Assembly (NCBI RefSeq): GCF_026013645.1
Contig: NZ_CP110224.1
Span: 2,046,001-2,110,000, forward strand
Direction of reading: 5' to 3'
Origin: Virgibacillus natechei
GTDB lineage: Bacteria; Bacillota; Bacilli; Bacillales; Amphibacillaceae
Length of the DNA: 64,000 nucleotides
In this document: positions 295 through 21,191 of the stretch, one piece after another
Numbering within the stretch: the stretch's first letter is position 1
Layout: each line of letters begins with the position of its first letter
Made by a program: the position numbers and the translations under genes
The notes under the pieces: model-generated
Database searches by the model: none
Told to the model about the DNA's origin: nothing
Seen by the model: the letters and a program-made list of their open reading frames with translations, nothing else

Positions 295-1653
295 CTAATC
301 ATTCTTTTCTAAAATAGGATAGTCATCCAGAAAATTTGTATTATAATCTCCTTTTATAAACACTTCATGCTCCATTATTAACCGGTGAAATGGAATAGTT
401 GTATGGACCCCCTCAACGACGAATTCATCCAGTGATCGCTTCATTCGTTTTATTGCTTCTTCACGAGTGCCCCCGTATGTAATCAATTTGGCAATCATGG
501 AGTCATAATATGGTGGTATTTTGTAACCAGAATATGCAGCTGAATCGATTCGTACACCTAGACCACCAGGTGGAAGATACATTTCTATTTCACCAGCTGA
601 AGGCATGAAATTTTTAAACGGGTTTTCAGCATTAACCCTGCATTCAATTGCCCAACCTCGAAATTCAATTTCCTCTTGTTTAAAAGATAAGCTTTCCATA
701 TTAGCGATGTTTATTTGTTCTGTGATTAAATCAACACCTGTAACCATTTCTGTAACCGGGTGCTCTACCTGAATTCGTGTATTCATCTCCATAAAATAAA
801 ATTCTTTGCTTTTTCTGTCGAATATAAATTCAATCGTACCCGCACCGTGATAGTCCACAGCTGATGCTGCTTGAACAGCTGCTGCACCCATCTTCTCTCG
901 TATTGCAGGAGTTATTGCCGGAGACGGCGTTTCTTCTATCAGCTTTTGCAACCTTCTTTGGATCGTACAATCTCTTTCCCCCAAGTGTACTACATTGCCA
1001 TGTTTATCTGCCAAAATTTGAATTTCAATATGGCGAAAGTCCTCAATGTATTTTTCAATATACACACCAGGGTTTCCAAATGCTGTTTCAGCTTCTTTCT
1101 GCGTCATTTGAATACCTTTAATTAGCTCTTCTTCCGTTCTAACTACACGAATACCTTTACCACCACCACCAGCAGTAGCTTTTATAATTACCGGGTAACC
1201 AATTTCATTTGCTGTTTCGATTGCGTGTTGCTCATCGTTAATTATTCCATCGGAACCTGGAACAATTGGTACATTTGCTTCTTTCATAGTTTCTCTCGCA
1301 ACATCTTTTATTCCCATTTTTTGAATTGCTTCAGGACTAGGTCCGATAAATATAATATTACAAGCCTTACATATTTCAGCGAAGTCAGCATTCTCAGCTA
1401 AAAAACCATACCCAGGATGGATTGCATCGACTTGTGTTAATGTAGCCACACTCATGATATTAGTAAAGTTAAGATAGCTATCTTTACTTAATTTTGGACC
1501 AATACAATAAGCCTCATCTGCTAATTGTACATGCAATGCTTCCTTATCTGCCTCTGAGTATACAGCGACTGTTTCTATTTCTAATTCTTTACAGGCCCGT
1601 ATAATCCGTACCGCTATCTCACCTCTGTTAGCAATTAACAGTTTTTTGATCAA
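295..1653 (-). CDS. accC: Acetyl-CoA carboxylase, biotin carboxylase subunit
   Basis: This 452-residue protein is of usual AccC length. It catalyses ATP-dependent carboxylation of biotin on AccB, the first half of the malonyl-CoA-forming reaction of fatty acid synthesis. It begins MIKKLLIANRGEIAVR, has the glycine-rich ATP-grasp loop GGGGKGIRVV near residue 165, and the EMNTRIQVEHPVTE active-site segment near 290. The start codon is TTG (1651-1653), preceded by an AAGGGGTGGAG ribosome site. The gene starts 13 bp after accB and is clearly in the same operon. Confidence 0.97.
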   Translation of the reverse strand: MIKKLLIANRGEIAVRIIRACKELEIETVAVYSEADKEALHVQLADEAYCIGPKLSKDSYLNFTNIMSVATLTQVDAIHPGYGFLAENADFAEICKACNIIFIGPSPEAIQKMGIKDVARETMKEANVPIVPGSDGIINDEQHAIETANEIGYPVIIKATAGGGGKGIRVVRTEEELIKGIQMTQKEAETAFGNPGVYIEKYIEDFRHIEIQILADKHGNVVHLGERDCTIQRRLQKLIEETPSPAITPAIREKMGAAAVQAASAVDYHGAGTIEFIFDRKSKEFYFMEMNTRIQVEHPVTEMVTGVDLITEQINIANMESLSFKQEEIEFRGWAIECRVNAENPFKNFMPSAGEIEMYLPPGGLGVRIDSAAYSGYKIPPYYDSMIAKLITYGGTREEAIKRMKRSLDEFVVEGVHTTIPFHRLIMEHEVFIKGDYNTNFLDDYPILEKND

Positions 1654-2406: not shown

Positions 2407-2979
2407 TTATTCTTCTTCGCTTTCAGTTGGTTGAAAATTAACATTTGTATTCACTTCACCAAATTCATCTCTCACCATTTGCATAATATTGACAACCTCT
2501 GTTTCAGACAAACTATCTACTTTTACGTGAACATGCACTTTTTCATCATCGGAATCAGAACGTACTAACACATCTTGATAATCCGTAGTCCCCATTATTG
2601 TCTCTTCTAGAATCGTTTCATTTGTGGAAGCTTGCTCCAGCACATCAATATCTTTTAAAGCTTGATCTTTTTCTTCTGAGGAAGCAGTACTCGATGCCAC
2701 AACATCATTTAAGCGATCTTTTTTCATACTTCTGTCATCCTGAATTTCCATCCTTAACGTGGTAAATAACTCATCTTGTCCCAAATTAGTAATATCTTCT
2801 ACCTCAGCTTCAGCCTCATCTTCAATTCCAGGTGCGTCCGTTGTCATCGTTTCTTCCGTTTCATTCTGCCCATCATCAATATAAGCTAGTTCCTCACTAT
2901 CCGAAGTCATATAATAGACACTCAACACAATCATTAAACTTAGCATTGTTAATAACCAAACCGTTTGTTTTTTTAACAT
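2407..2979 (-). CDS. spoIIIAH: Stage III sporulation protein AH
   Basis: SpoIIIAH forms, with SpoIIQ, the channel bridging mother cell and forespore during engulfment. The 190-residue product has one N-terminal membrane segment (LLTMLSLMIVLSVYYMT, about 9-25), an acidic linker, and a C-terminal YscJ/FliF-like ring-building domain (about 75-185, including DYQDVLVRSDSDDEKVHVHVKV). It is the last gene of the spoIIIA operon, 14 bp after spoIIIAG. Length is close to the usual 200-220 residues; the linker is more acidic than in B. subtilis. Confidence 0.93.
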   Translation of the reverse strand: MLKKQTVWLLTMLSLMIVLSVYYMTSDSEELAYIDDGQNETEETMTTDAPGIEDEAEAEVEDITNLGQDELFTTLRMEIQDDRSMKKDRLNDVVASSTASSEEKDQALKDIDVLEQASTNETILEETIMGTTDYQDVLVRSDSDDEKVHVHVKVDSLSETEVVNIMQMVRDEFGEVNTNVNFQPTESEEE

Positions 2980-2993
2980 ATATTTTTCCTCCC

Positions 2994-3626
2994 TTAATTT
3001 CTTGGCATTACAGAAACTCTATGTGTTGGAACATCAAGCACACGTGAAATTGACTCAACCATCCAATTTTTTACATTAGAATTATCAGCACCTTTTGCTA
3101 CCACAAATACGCCTCTCACATCTGGTTTCTCTGTTTGTGTTAATAAAGGTACCTCCTGATCGCCTTGCCTAACTAAAACGACCTGTGTTTCTTCCGTGTT
3201 GTCCTCTACTTGTCTGGTACCACCATTACTATCATCTTCATCCGTAGTTTGTCCGCTTATTACAAGGTCTTTCTCATAAACTTTTACATTCGTAGAGTCG
3301 AGGTTCACCATCACTTCAGCTTCTGACACTCCTTGAATTTTGTTTAGCATATTTTCCAAATCTTTTTTGAAGCTTTCTTCTAGTTCATCTACATCAGCTG
3401 TAGCAGATACTTCTTCTGAACTAGTTTCTTGTGAATCTTGTTCCACTTGATTTTCAAAATCAGTGTCCATGTTGGACTCCTCTGGTGATGAAAATACATT
3501 TCCTAAAATAAGCAGCAGTAGTCCAACTAAAGCAAGAACAATTATATATCCTGTTTTTTTGGATGGAGTTTTCGAATTGTTATCACTATCTTTTGATTGA
3601 AAAAATTTTCCGAATTTTTTTATCAA
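2994..3626 (-). CDS. spoIIIAG: Stage III sporulation protein AG
   Basis: SpoIIIAG is the large-ring component of the feeding-tube complex, related to secretin/FliF ring folds. The product has an N-terminal cytoplasmic stub, a membrane segment (YIIVLALVGLLLLILGNVFS) and an extracytoplasmic domain with NMLNKIQGVSEAEVMVNLDS and GVFVVAKGADNSNVK. I choose a TTG start at 3624-3626 giving 210 residues. GGGAGGGA lies at correct spacing, and the TTGA overlap with the spoIIIAF stop is typical of translational coupling. A longer ATG start at 3644 is possible but would have no ribosome site. Confidence 0.9.
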   Translation of the reverse strand: MIKKFGKFFQSKDSDNNSKTPSKKTGYIIVLALVGLLLLILGNVFSSPEESNMDTDFENQVEQDSQETSSEEVSATADVDELEESFKKDLENMLNKIQGVSEAEVMVNLDSTNVKVYEKDLVISGQTTDEDDSNGGTRQVEDNTEETQVVLVRQGDQEVPLLTQTEKPDVRGVFVVAKGADNSNVKNWMVESISRVLDVPTHRVSVMPRN

Positions 3627-12349: not shown

Positions 12350-15300
12350 TTATATTCCGCACTTCAGCTGGGCGTTACAGCTTGTACACGTATTACAGCC
12401 ACCTATCTCTTCAACACTGCCTGTCCGGCAAACAGGACATGTGTCCCCAATTTCAGAACCGATCGATACACTCGTTTTTTCCAGTTCTTGTACAGTGTCC
12501 ATTAATACAACTTTCGGTTTTGCAGTTTCATGAAATAATTCTGTTTGCTCGCCGACAGTATTCTCTTCCGCTTTTAGTGTCAGTACTTGAGAATCGCGGC
12601 TACCATCTACATAGACAGTTCCACCTTTTGCTCCGCCGTTATATAACCTACGATAAACACTCTCAACCTGATCCACTTTGTAGCCTCGCGGTGCGTTAAC
12701 CGTTTTGGAAATAGAACTATCTACCCAGCGCTGGATTACACATTGTGTATCAGCATGTGCTTCAGGAGTTAAGTCCATTGAAGCAACAAACCATTTTGGT
12801 AAATTATTAGGATCTGCTTCTGGATTTCTGTCTAGATATTCCTGTACAATACTTGCTTTTACCTCAATAAATTTACCAAGTCTTCCACTTCTATAATAAG
12901 AAAAGGAAAAATATGGCTCTAATCCTGTACTAACACCGACCATTGTCCCTGTGCTGCCTGTAGGTGCAACAGTCAATAAATGAGAGTTACGAATACCATT
13001 TTCCAGTATTGCTTCTCTTATATCTTCCGGCATTTTTTTCATATAACCGGTATTGATAAATGCTTCTCGTAGTTCTTTTGTTTCCTCATCTGTTTTCCCG
13101 ATTAAAAATGGAAAACTTCCTTTTTCTTTGGCAAGCTCAATGGATTCCCGGTAAGCAGTTGTTGCTATAGCTTCAAATAGCTTGTCTATCAATTCATTGC
13201 CTGCTTTTGATCCATACTCTGTTTCACAATAGATTAAGAGATCATGCATGCCCATGACGCCTAATCCAACTCGACGTTCACCGAGTGCCTGTTTTTTATT
13301 CTCTTCTAGAAAATATGGTGTTGCATCGATTACATTATCCTGCATGCGAACGCCGGTTTTTACCGTTTGCTCTAATTTTTTAAAATCAACCGTTTTTGTA
13401 TCTTTATTTGCCATTTCAGCTAAATTCACTGCGGCTAGATTACAAACGGAATAAGGTGCGAGTGGTTGTTCCAATTTTGTTATCCTATCGGCTTTTTATC
13501 CGATAGTTCTTACAGTTTGAATTCCTGTAAGTTCAGCATATCTTTTCATTACACACTTTTCATACGTTTATTTCATATGTAATGTTGCGGCCTCGTGGAC
13601 GGATTATATTCTGCTATACAGGTTCGCCGTCTATGCGTTGCCCCTGACTAAACTTTTACATTCAGCCTTCGGTTCGGATTCCCGTTTCAGGGTTCCCGCT
13701 TTATTCCGCAATGTTTAACGTGAGGCAAACTAAGCTACTCTACCACACGGATTTGTCGCAACTACCTGATCGCCATAAGCTTGAGCATTGGTCATGTCAT
13801 TCGCATTGTCAATAAAGAAAATACCTGGTTCCGCTGCGTATGTTGCACAAATATTGATTAAGTTCCATAGTTCCTTAGCTTTCACTCGGCGGTATGTGCG
13901 TATACCGTATCCTTTTTCTTCCCATTTACGAACATCACCGACATCATGCCAATTTTCATTGTATGCAGCCATTTGCTCTTTCGTATAATTTTCAACATCC
14001 GGGAAACGAAGATCATAATAATCATCATTTTCGACTGCTTCCATAAATTCTTTCGTTAAACAAACAGAGATATTTGCCCCGGTTAAAAATTCCGGATTAT
14101 GAACAGAATAGGTGCCGCCAGTTTGCAGTTTTTCTTCCGCTTTGCTTATTGCTTCCTGTGTAAATCCACCTAATCCTGGCATTGTTCTGTAGTTAACGAT
14201 TCCCTGGTATAGGTCCAGTTCTGTTTCTGTAAATGGTGTGAAGTTCAATTTCTCCTGTGCCAGCTGTTTAATTTGCTCATCCTCTGTATTTTCAATCAAA
14301 TAACGCAAAATTCGTGGATTTTGCATTTTAGAAATAATGAATTCTATGATATCAGGATGAGAATCTACTAACATAATCATTTGAGCCAAATTGTTACGTT
14401 GATTCGTTACATCAACTCTCTAAGTCACCTTAGAGTTCAGACCATATCTTACACATTTAATATGTGCCCCCGCACTTCGAAATCACTTGATTTCTACTTT
14501 ACTCGCTTTCGTCTTCAGACGTGCTTTCAATGGTCGTTGAACCTTCTCCCAATAGGAAGCTTGGCTGCTGATTGTCTTTATCCCCTTGTTGTTTTACAGC
14601 ATTCACGCTTACCGTTTCCAGTTACGTTGTAGCCAACAAGTCATCTATGATGCTTCACCAATTTTACATTCTTGTACACCATAGGATTTCACGCTTTTCT
14701 ATGAAATCTAAAGAGTTTCCAGCAATTCACGGGGTTTATTTAGAGACGAGGCACTTCTATTTACCACGTCTTGAACCGCCTTGCTCAACTAAATGTGTGA
14801 GTTTCGCGATATCATCAAGCCATGACACCGACCCGGATGACTTTCCGTTAACACCTCTTGCCAATGTATTGCGAGGTCTGAGTGTGGATCCATTTGTTCC
14901 AACTCCCCCTCCTCTACTCATAATTTCCATGACTTGTTTACGGTGATCGGATATGCCTTCACGTGAATCTTTAATATATGGCATGACGTAACAGTTAAAA
15001 TACGTGACATCCGTATCTGCACCAGCTCCGTATAACACTCTTCCTGCTGGTATAAAATTCATATCTGCCAATTCACTATTGAATCTATTAAACCATTTTT
15101 GTCGTGCTTCTTCTGTTTGCTCCACATTTGAAAGTCCTGTAGCATTTCTTCTCGCAATTTGCTCATAGTATAATTCTAGTGGCTTATCGATAACATCTAA
15201 ACCCCGCTGCACAATTCCTGAAGCTGCTTCCTCTTCGTTATCTAAAACAGATACAAATTCAGAATCCACCTGGATATTCGCTTCTTTTTTCATCCAATCT

Positions 15301-15557
15301 ATTGATTTTACGATTCCTAATCCGCGAGCAGGAAACTTAGGTTCTGACTTGACTGTTAAGACAACAAAATCGCCTTCTTTTAATGTTTTCTTTTCAGTAT
15401 CTTTAAAAGCATATCGATCCAGCATTACTAACCGGGATACACCCTTATGGGTAATGTTCATATCTTCAGTAATCGGATGAACTTGTGAAAACAATTTGAT
15501 GTCTTCATTAAGCGCTTCTAGATCAATTTTGCTCTTTTTTTCGATAGCAACCGACAT
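12350..15557 (-). CDS. nrdJ: Class II (B12-dependent) ribonucleotide reductase NrdJ, three exons
   Basis: Makes deoxyribonucleotides using adenosylcobalamin. The coding sequence is split: exon 1 14763-15557 (265 codons), exon 2 13742-14386 (215 codons), exon 3 12350-13471 (373 codons plus stop). Joined in frame they give an 853-residue protein, a usual length for Bacillaceae NrdJ. Landmarks are TYFNCYVMP (first redox Cys) and RGGGVGTNGSTLRPR in exon 1, the active-site finger NPCG at the end of exon 2 completed by EQPLAPYSVCN in exon 3, and VAPTGSTGTMVG. A C-terminal Cys-rich tail (CPVC, CNTCTSCNAQLKCG) is probably the redox shuttle. Neither intervening sequence is translatable; both are group I introns. 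A paired NrdR operator lies upstream. The gene occupies the slot between mntR and yqhL. Confidence 0.93.
13472..13741 (-). ncRNA. Group I intron 2 in nrdJ (ORF-less, about 270 nt)
   Basis: It separates the codons of NPCG and EQPL, the catalytic Cys loop. The 5' exon ends in T (GGT) and the intron ends in G (...AAAATTG), as group I introns require. Inside, on the minus strand, are a P3-P5-like segment CATTGCGGAATAAAGCGG, an R-like GGCAACGCATAGACGGCG and an S element AAGATATGCTGAAC. GCAT in R can pair with ATGC in S as P7. The 5' exon frame runs into a TAG within four codons. Core elements are more divergent than in intron 1, so the boundaries rest mainly on restoring NPCGEQPL. Confidence 0.82.
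14387..14762 (-). ncRNA. Group I intron 1 in nrdJ (ORF-less, 376 nt)
   Basis: It interrupts GGSRRG / AQMIML. All four conserved group I core elements are present in order on the minus strand: P GAATTGCTGGAAAC (14715-14728), Q AATCAGCAGCCAAGC (14559-14573), R GTTCAACGACCATTG (14528-14542) and S AAGATATGGTCTGAAC (14435-14450). P7 forms between GACCAT and ATGGTC. The 5' exon ends in T and the intron ends in G. There is no homing-endonuclease ORF, and translation would stop at TAG two codons into the intron. Confidence 0.93.
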
Positions 15558-15627
15558 TTAATCGCTCCTTTATTAATTTAGTACATGATTATTCTATACT
15601 AATACAATACCACATATCAAGAATTTA

Positions 15628-20718: not shown

Positions 20719-20957
20719 ATAAAAAGACAGAGATCCCCCAGAATGCTTCGTTCAAGGGAACCTCTGTCTTCAAACCAGAAAGTTGCATATTTATGTAGAA
20801 AACCTTTTCCATTTTCCATATAAATATTTGCTTCGTGGGTGGTCTACTAAGTAAATAGTAAACGCTCTCCAGAGTTGCGTCCTACAAGAGTCTTTTTGCC
20901 TGAGAGATTCACATATGTTTGCTCCTTCGGCGTTACATTAAAGTAAGCTCTCCCCTT
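20719..20957 (-). promoter_or_regulatory. Tandem glycine riboswitch with terminator, upstream of gcvT
   Basis: On the minus strand, aptamer 1 has the conserved GCCGAAGGAGCAA, AATCTCTCAGGCAAAAAGAC and CTCTGGAGAG. A short linker follows, then a second degenerate aptamer with CCACGAAGCAA, CAACTTTCTGG and AGACAGAG. The 3' AGACAGAG of aptamer 2 can pair with CTCTGTCTTTTT (20721-20732), forming an intrinsic terminator at 20719-20770. Glycine binding would hold AGACAGAG in the aptamer and let transcription proceed, as known for gcvT riboswitches. The remainder of 20958-21191 holds only promoter-like AT-rich DNA. Confidence 0.95.
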
Positions 20958-21191
20958 GTATTCATCCGCTTTTATGAAAATGACTTATTTGGTTATACTA
21001 ATACAAGTATCTTTAGAAAAATCTATCTTGATTGTAACATAGAACAATTCAGGAATATAGCTTTAAGTAGATAAGAAAGCTTAAAAGCTTTTTCACTTCA
21101 AAGTGCAGGCTTTAGTTTCCTTCAAAAATTTTGGTGCGAAGCCACGTTTTCTAATATCCTGATTAATCCACAAATACAAAGGAAGTATCGT

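Follow-up and report, generated by a model that had tools for sequence, protein, structure and literature searches.

We found that the class II ribonucleotide reductase (RNR) gene nrdJ of a salt-tolerant Bacillus relative is almost certainly interrupted by two separate predicted self-splicing group I introns, each placed exactly between codons. The gene lies in the window, by which we mean the whole 64,000-nucleotide stretch of DNA that was analyzed; the positions of its parts are given in Table 1. As evident from the profile search, NCBIfam NF005991 matched nrdJ in three pieces on the minus strand that tiled the profile. Upon removal of both introns, the three joined exons read as 853 residues and a stop codon with zero internal stops. 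Each intron directly follows GGT. A third insertion site known from relatives (APTG/STGTM) was empty in exon 3 of the window gene. The longest plus-strand open stretches in the two introns were 40 and 27 codons, and no ORF was present in either.

Table 1. Features of the interrupted nrdJ gene and their positions in the window
Feature	Position	Strand	Description
nrdJ exon 1	14763..15557	-	codons 1-265, ends GGSRRG; NF005991 positions 2-265, E 1.1e-144
nrdJ exon 2	13742..14386	-	215 codons, ends NPCG; NF005991 positions 266-481, E 2.5e-119
nrdJ exon 3	12350..13471	-	373 codons and stop, starts EQPLAP; NF005991 positions 481-858, E 1.2e-217
Group I intron 1	14387..14762	-	376 nt, phase 0, no ORF; RF00028 68.4 bits, E 3e-15
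Intron 1 internal guide sequence	14744..14752	-	P1 partner is 5' exon AGACGTGGT
Intron 1 P7 5' strand GACCAU (R element)	14530..14535	-	partner 14440-14445; paired in 11/11 sequences
Intron 1 P7 3' strand AUGGUC (S element)	14440..14445	-	partner 14530-14535
Homing-endonuclease gene scar, 63 nt, Vsr/EDxHD-like	14646..14708	-	within P5 region of intron 1; collinear with L022, L016 and G002
Group I intron 2	13472..13741	-	270 nt, phase 0, no ORF; model R1 183.3 bits, E 9e-41
Intron 2 internal guide sequence GCCUCACG	13719..13726	-	P1, one U-U mismatch
Intron 2 P7 5' strand GCAUA	13632..13636	-	partner 13536-13540; paired in 9/9 sequences
Intron 2 P7 3' strand UAUGC	13536..13540	-	partner 13632-13636

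Identification of the two introns

An earlier note on this DNA had placed a complete group I intron at 14762-14387, between GGSRRG and AQMIML, and these coordinates proved to be exact. On the minus strand, 14763 is the final base of ...GACGTGGT, and 14386 is the first base of GCTCAAATG. A search with Rfam RF00028, the check that had been proposed, matched intron 1 at 14772-14418 with a score of 68.4 bits against a gathering score of 50 (E 3e-15), and the match recurred in a high-sensitivity search. The claim that removal of 376 nt restores GGSRRG-AQMIML agreed with the insert-free relatives, which read the same junction with zero extra bases. The P7 pairing was confirmed between GACCAT (14535-14530) and ATGGTC (14445-14440), as were the U that ends the 5' exon, which forms a U.G pair at the splice site, and the G that ends the intron; P1 contains this U.G pair and one U-U mismatch. 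Two points of that description had to be amended. The Rfam match, the covariation and the relatives all spoke for a complete group I intron, but the reading of a single intron was rejected, since a second was found at 13741-13472. In addition, intron 1 indeed has no ORF, although calling it ORF-less is an incomplete account, as a 63-nt scar of an endonuclease gene remains within it (14708-14646).

The second intron, which the earlier note had overlooked, lies between NPCG and EQPL, and insert-free relatives read its exact junction. RF00028 gave no match to intron 2 up to E 1 in 12350-15600, nor at E 0.001 genome-wide. A covariance model, R1, was built from seven of the 15 relatives of the intron 2 type, with the window copy excluded. 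Against the 64 kb window, R1 gave a single match up to E 1, and this was intron 2 (183.3 bits, E 9e-41). By eye, we recognized P1 with U.G at the cut, P3, P4-P6, P7, P8, P9, P9.1 and the terminal G; additionally, GUUU (13730-13727), just 5' of the guide sequence, can pair with GAAC of the 3' exon as P10. Exact restoration of the frame, U.G at the 5' splice site and the terminal G were all found for this intron. Whereas intron 1 is a member of RF00028 (Intron_gpI) by score, intron 2 and all 15 relatives of its type were unreported at the gathering score. We ascribe the lack of a match to a limit of the model, since it misses these 15 relatives too; the standard Rfam model passes over the subtype to which intron 2 belongs.

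The inserts break the frame with stops, as could also be expected if they were group II introns, IStrons, inteins or errors of assembly, but we give this reading almost no credence. The group I covariance models RF00028 and R1 match the inserts, and the short open stretches leave no transposase or intein frame. An IStron was rejected on the basis of the lengths of 376 and 270 nt without an ORF or transposase gene, and an intein or group II intron on the basis of the missing frame and the group I matches. Against an assembly error, other genomes, sequenced separately, carry similar inserts at matching places.

Conserved fold of the introns

The predicted group I folds were compared with those of relatives. 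The named structures write P7 as a pseudoknot, and alignments A1, A2 and A8 contained 9 of 16, 11 of 18 and 7 of 15 introns of the respective type, picked mostly for shortness. In the intron 2 set (nine sequences, 62 pairs), 98.4% of cells were paired. Both sides had changed in 27 of the 62 pairs, compared with an average of 12.2 across 500 shuffles, none of which scored as high, and with 4-7 when the partners were slid, a control over which the structures are favored, having been derived from the same sequences as those tested. In the intron 1 set (11 site-1a sequences, 77 pairs), 98.6% of cells were paired, and both sides had changed in 28 of the 77 pairs, compared with 12.5 in shuffles (0 of 500) and 3-8 with slid partners, under the same bias; further pair types were not above shuffles in this set (176 of 500). 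The window copies form 62 of the 62 named pairs in intron 2 and 76 of the 77 in intron 1.

A pseudoknotted P3/P7 core with P4-P6 and P8 was kept across the relatives of both introns, and P9 was kept as well in intron 2. P1, P4 and P7 were nearly invariant in both sets and had almost no covariation of their own; P7 hardly varies and therefore supports the structure by pairing, not by covariation. In the site-2 set, L051 showed one compensatory change, in which the exon base and the guide base of P1 had changed together. The U.G pair at the 5' splice site was present in 11 of 11 sequences of the intron 1 set. Two of the 18 site-1a introns (L051 and L075) end in A rather than G with the boundaries as drawn here. 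The single-strand folds were more stable than those of shuffles, with z values of -4.67 and -4.54. Introns of subgroup IA have extra helices, P7.1/P7.2, between the 5' strand of P7 and the 3' strand of P3, and this feature was present as helix 7 in the intron 2 set and as helices 9-11 in the intron 1 set.

We infer splicing in the cell, and its efficiency. By analogy with the family, each guide sequence would pair with the upstream exon end to form P1 with U.G at the cut; guanosine would be bound in P7, the 5' site cut and the exons joined at the terminal G. Early in-frame stops, at codon 2 of intron 1 and codon 4 of intron 2, would halt ribosomes before they unfold the ribozyme. With the window copies counted, each of the 18 site-1a introns has its first in-frame stop within 12 codons, and each of the 20 site-2 introns has it within 13; L012, L029, L060 and L061 were left out of the site-1 stop counts and of the exon-T counts given below, and L074 was left out of the site-3 stop count. 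Stops so soon after each 5' site fit a published idea, put forward in a passage of PMC3984707, namely that the intron can fold unhindered once the ribosome has stalled.

Introns in nrdJ of related bacteria

GTDB genomes were scanned with exon 2, which gave at least 534 encoding stretches, and the best 80 named loci were kept. By title, these 80 loci came from Bacillaceae sensu lato and from an unplaced Bacilli MAG. Inserts were found at the sites of the window gene or at neighboring nrdJ sites in 34 of the best 80 loci: site 1a, that of intron 1, was occupied in 17, site 2, that of intron 2, in 19 and site 3 (APTG/STGTM) in five, with two of the three sites filled in 11. Shifted site-1 inserts lay three bases upstream in L012 and L029 and six bases upstream in L060 and L061. 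RF00028 at its gathering score reported the site-1 inserts of 17 of 21 loci, the site-2 inserts of 4 of 19 and the site-3 inserts of 2 of 5; R1 supported the remaining 15 of the 19 site-2 loci, none of which RF00028 reported (0 of 15). The view in the earlier note that an intron in a class II nrdJ is less usual needs correction for these best-matching loci, among which inserts recur. The named examples in the passages covered from the literature are mostly class I or phage genes. nrdJ is a recurrent landing place for mobile introns in related bacteria.

We also compared the reach of the two models. Among the window genome and 60 relatives, RF00028 matched anywhere in the genome (E 0.001) in 31 of 61 and R1 in 12 of 61. 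Seven strong R1 matches (>140 bits) were absent from the RF00028 list of the same 61 genomes; the genomes that carry them and the 15 R1-supported site-2 loci overlap. Across the phylum, R1 matched only the window genome and one other of 149 genomes, so the R1 subtype looks mainly local. A phage of Enterocloster carries an R1-type intron (115 bits).

The 5' exon ends on a third codon position that is free to vary. At site 1a, all 17 occupied genes have T as this last base, compared with 15 of the 59 empty genes (Fisher p 1.5e-8); at site 2, the figures are 19 of 19 occupied genes and 25 of 61 empty genes (p 1.6e-6), both comparisons being uncorrected for relatedness. At site 3 it was T in 4 of 4 without the mis-bounded L074. 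A T at the occupied exon ends is expected from the U.G rule of group I splicing. In a tree of the exon proteins of 81 genes, site 1 was occupied in 22 genes (shifted positions included), site 2 in 20 and site 3 in five, and this quick tree with many weak inner branches required at least 14, 18 and 5 state changes, respectively.

Several individual loci differed from the window gene in their inserts. The nrdJ gene of Aquibacillus koreensis (L060) had group I introns at 2220-2590 and 2659-2962 (RF00028 77.7 and 86.8 bits), split by an exon of approximately 30 nt (RGAQMIMLAD, by eye), and a third intron at site 2. In four Lentibacillus loci (L011, L012, L016 and L021), the site-2 introns (RF00028 81-93 bits) had cores very unlike that of the window intron, while their first 30 bases (P1/P10) were nearly the same. 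Among 15 nrdJ-bearing virus loci, 11 were uninterrupted at sites 1 and 2; L151 and L155, in which only site 2 is visible, and L158, in which only site 1 is visible and the match breaks off soon after, were also uninterrupted. The nrdJ gene of virus contig L153 contained a compact 185-nt insert at site 2 (3119-3303) with nearly the same guide sequence and a different core; the insert is group I intron-like by eye and gave no Rfam match up to E 0.1.

Further introns were observed outside nrdJ. In the same genome, two group I introns lie in or at the flagellin gene hag, approximately 100 nt apart (L142, G000:C1:2998000-3003500, 2094-2437 and 2540-2863, minus strand; RF00028 71.4 and 66.4 bits), and parts of them share 71% of bases with nrdJ intron 1, in alignments of 157 and 108 bases. 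A probable group I intron is located in the T-loop of the tmRNA gene, beside smpB (L143, G000:C1:2481500-2483500, approximately 812-1137, minus strand). It scored 42.5 bits with RF00028 in the genome search, below the cut-off; cmscan matched the tmRNA up to the start of the intron, the halves of the T-arm were readable on both sides of the insert, and ARAGORN found no tmRNA in the overlapping locus L004. Three RF00028 matches below the cut-off, the tmRNA one and two in G002, a genome of the same genus, did not recur in cmscan at E 0.01. A likely sixth group I intron, L134 (G000:C1 near 1850019-1850163, plus strand; R1 37.1 bits), contains an ORF of 284 aa resembling an HNH endonuclease by eye, and its host gene looks like a prophage tape-measure gene. 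Across 47 nt at its 3' end, L134 matched nrdJ intron 2 at 83%, and RF00028 gave no match to L134 up to E 0.1. A Serratia jumbo phage (L119 2001-2117) matched 118 nt of intron 1 at 84%, between two pieces annotated as RpoBC, pointing to related introns in phage RNA polymerase genes. The window itself also holds a glycine riboswitch aptamer (20878-20965, minus strand, 72 bits), upstream on the same strand of ORFs that by eye resemble glycine dehydrogenase subunits.

Mobility, gene function and biological meaning

The introns of the window lack an intact homing-endonuclease gene, and such genes were found at the same sites in relatives. A Pfam scan of intron ORFs covered seven pieces from six loci. 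It identified LAGLIDADG at site 2 of L006 (E 8e-31), HNH at site 3 of L033 (E 1e-9) and, at site 1 of L073, DUF559 above the cut-off (E 5e-7) and Vsr just below it (E 2e-5); by our own reading of its motif, the L073 protein appears EDxHD-like. The LAGLIDADG gene of L012 was split in two frames. A site-2 protein of several loci, which has MNRGYAGFYK close to its start, matched no Pfam family above the cut-off in the L071 and L022 copies and seems PD-(D/E)xK-like by eye.

To place the window copy, we compared it with two members of its genus. The nrdJ gene of G002 had three inserts of 1217, 275 and 1126 nt, with introns 1 and 2 at the same places as in the window, and its intron 1 was identical to that of the window at 361 of 376 aligned bases (96%). 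The excess of approximately 840 bases in G002 intron 1 holds an endonuclease gene of the L073 kind that is broken but in large part retained. The 63-nt scar in the window corresponds to the start and end of such a gene and is collinear with the G002 intron. The inserts of L022 and L016 were collinear with the scar as well (in neither case did any of 1000 shuffles do as well); the separate comparisons with L073 (77 of 1000 shuffles as good), L046 (113), L041 (423), L068 (189) and L076 (201) were not significant, and matching by local alignment gave weak results at all loci tried. Intron 1 would have lost its endonuclease gene by deletion, with the scar left behind. In G001, the third member of the genus, all three sites were empty, and an apparent one-base frame change was present near residue 217.

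The exons of the window gene and G002 were 88.6% identical, and we found no co-conversion tract at the intron sites between the two. Since no tract there is clearly more similar than the exons in general, the simplest reading is that the window and G002 introns would derive from a common ancestor within the genus, the endonuclease gene having been lost later. Vertical inheritance can be extended to the whole family, with introns that have not been mobile recently and a patchy distribution produced by repeated loss, but we consider this extension unlikely. The shared places of introns 1 and 2 in G002 and the absent co-conversion tract speak for it, as does the site-1a tree, which groups the window intron with those of Virgibacillus, Lentibacillus and Oceanobacillus; an AU test did not reject host grouping there (p 0.214). 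Against it stand the same test for the site-2 intron tree, in which the host group was rejected (p 0.027), the endonuclease genes at the sites, the two very different site-2 cores and the many state changes at sites 1 and 2, counted on the quick tree with weak branches. Vertical descent is plausible within the genus of the window and does not look sufficient for the wider family, and horizontal movement is weakly supported by the trees. In our preferred reading, both introns appear to descend from mobile introns that bore homing-endonuclease genes, and we infer past homing.

We then considered whether the gene still functions. The genome also carries an uninterrupted class I RNR, with a large subunit frame of 798 codons and an adjoining small subunit frame of 352, and no NRDD (class III) match was found in it. 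The statement in the earlier note that every RNR molecule would depend on splicing is therefore not correct, and total dependence of the cell was rejected: with class I RNR present, the cell does not rely on splicing for all its deoxyribonucleotides. Only the B12-dependent enzyme would need it, with two correct events for each NrdJ. As NrdJ may be dispensable beside a complete class I enzyme and the endonuclease gene of intron 1 is gone, nrdJ could be a dead gene with decayed, non-splicing introns, the class I enzyme doing all the work. We judge this to be very improbable. All three exons are open and of full length, and dN was 0.087-0.101 with dS of 2.0 or more or saturated (four of six relatives comparable), from which NrdJ appears to be under purifying selection. 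These features and the named pairs retained by both introns are not expected of a dead gene, and the full-length exons and dN/dS ruled out a pseudogene. A search of solved structures with exon 2 gave no match.

Intron 2 interrupts the motif NPCGEQ, which we take to be the RNR active site. Its insertion between the C and E of this motif fits the tendency of group I introns to sit in active-site codons, as described in a passage of PMC3943268.

Group I introns in RNR genes are of an already known kind. A group I intron in the RIR gene of Nostoc punctiforme was reportedly described by Meng in 2007, with an insertion sequence to judge by the title; this would be a bacterial RNR gene with a group I intron, as here, from a different phylum. 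The intron-bearing cyanobacterial gene is termed nrdE in a passage of PMC3984707 and RIR in a passage of PMC12702839, where the B12-dependent Anabaena enzyme is cited beside it, and it may belong to class II. According to passages of PMC3653736 and PMC3984707, nrdE of Staphylococcus phage Twort and nrdE/nrdF of the SPbeta prophage and Bacillus contain group I introns as does the window gene, sometimes more than one per gene and near conserved functional residues, again as here. Some of those introns have homing endonucleases, whereas the window copies have none left. As far as these passages go, the genes concerned are class I and largely of phage or prophage origin, in contrast to the class II gene of the host chromosome. 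The flagellin introns of thermophilic Bacillus and Geobacillus (Hayakawa and Ishizuka, in a passage of PMC3984707) likewise interrupt a protein gene of Bacillaceae, although the gene and the sites differ. More than 100 RNR group I introns had been curated in RNRdb by 2009 (PMC2795772), the genes not being named in the passages concerned, and a passage of PMC3653736 describes two phage nrdJ genes split otherwise than by a group I intron. The passages covered from the open-licence literature contained no account of a group I intron in a bacterial nrdJ, and no account of introns in Bacillaceae nrdJ was found in that literature, which is not proof of absence.

A more elaborate scenario can be proposed, which we regard as quite improbable. 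The endonuclease-free introns of the window would have been domesticated, and Bacillaceae nrdJ would be a standing hotspot, with a few of its conserved codons contested by very different ribozyme cores and by three or more endonuclease families. With the class I enzyme able to sustain ordinary growth, the splicing of the two introns may by now serve as a conditional gate through which NrdJ is made only in certain states, such as low oxygen or the supply of B12 or GTP.

Our verdict is one of ordinary chemistry in an instructive hotspot. A chromosomal class II RNR gene can carry two or three group I introns, and inserts of this kind recur across a bacterial family. Such genes are easily misread as broken, because their exons appear as separate frames. 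Moreover, the genus provides a natural series, from empty sites in G001 through an intron with a broken endonuclease gene in G002 to nearly the same intron, with that gene deleted, in the window. Through this series, the gain-decay-loss cycle that has been proposed for homing introns can be put to the test among close relatives.
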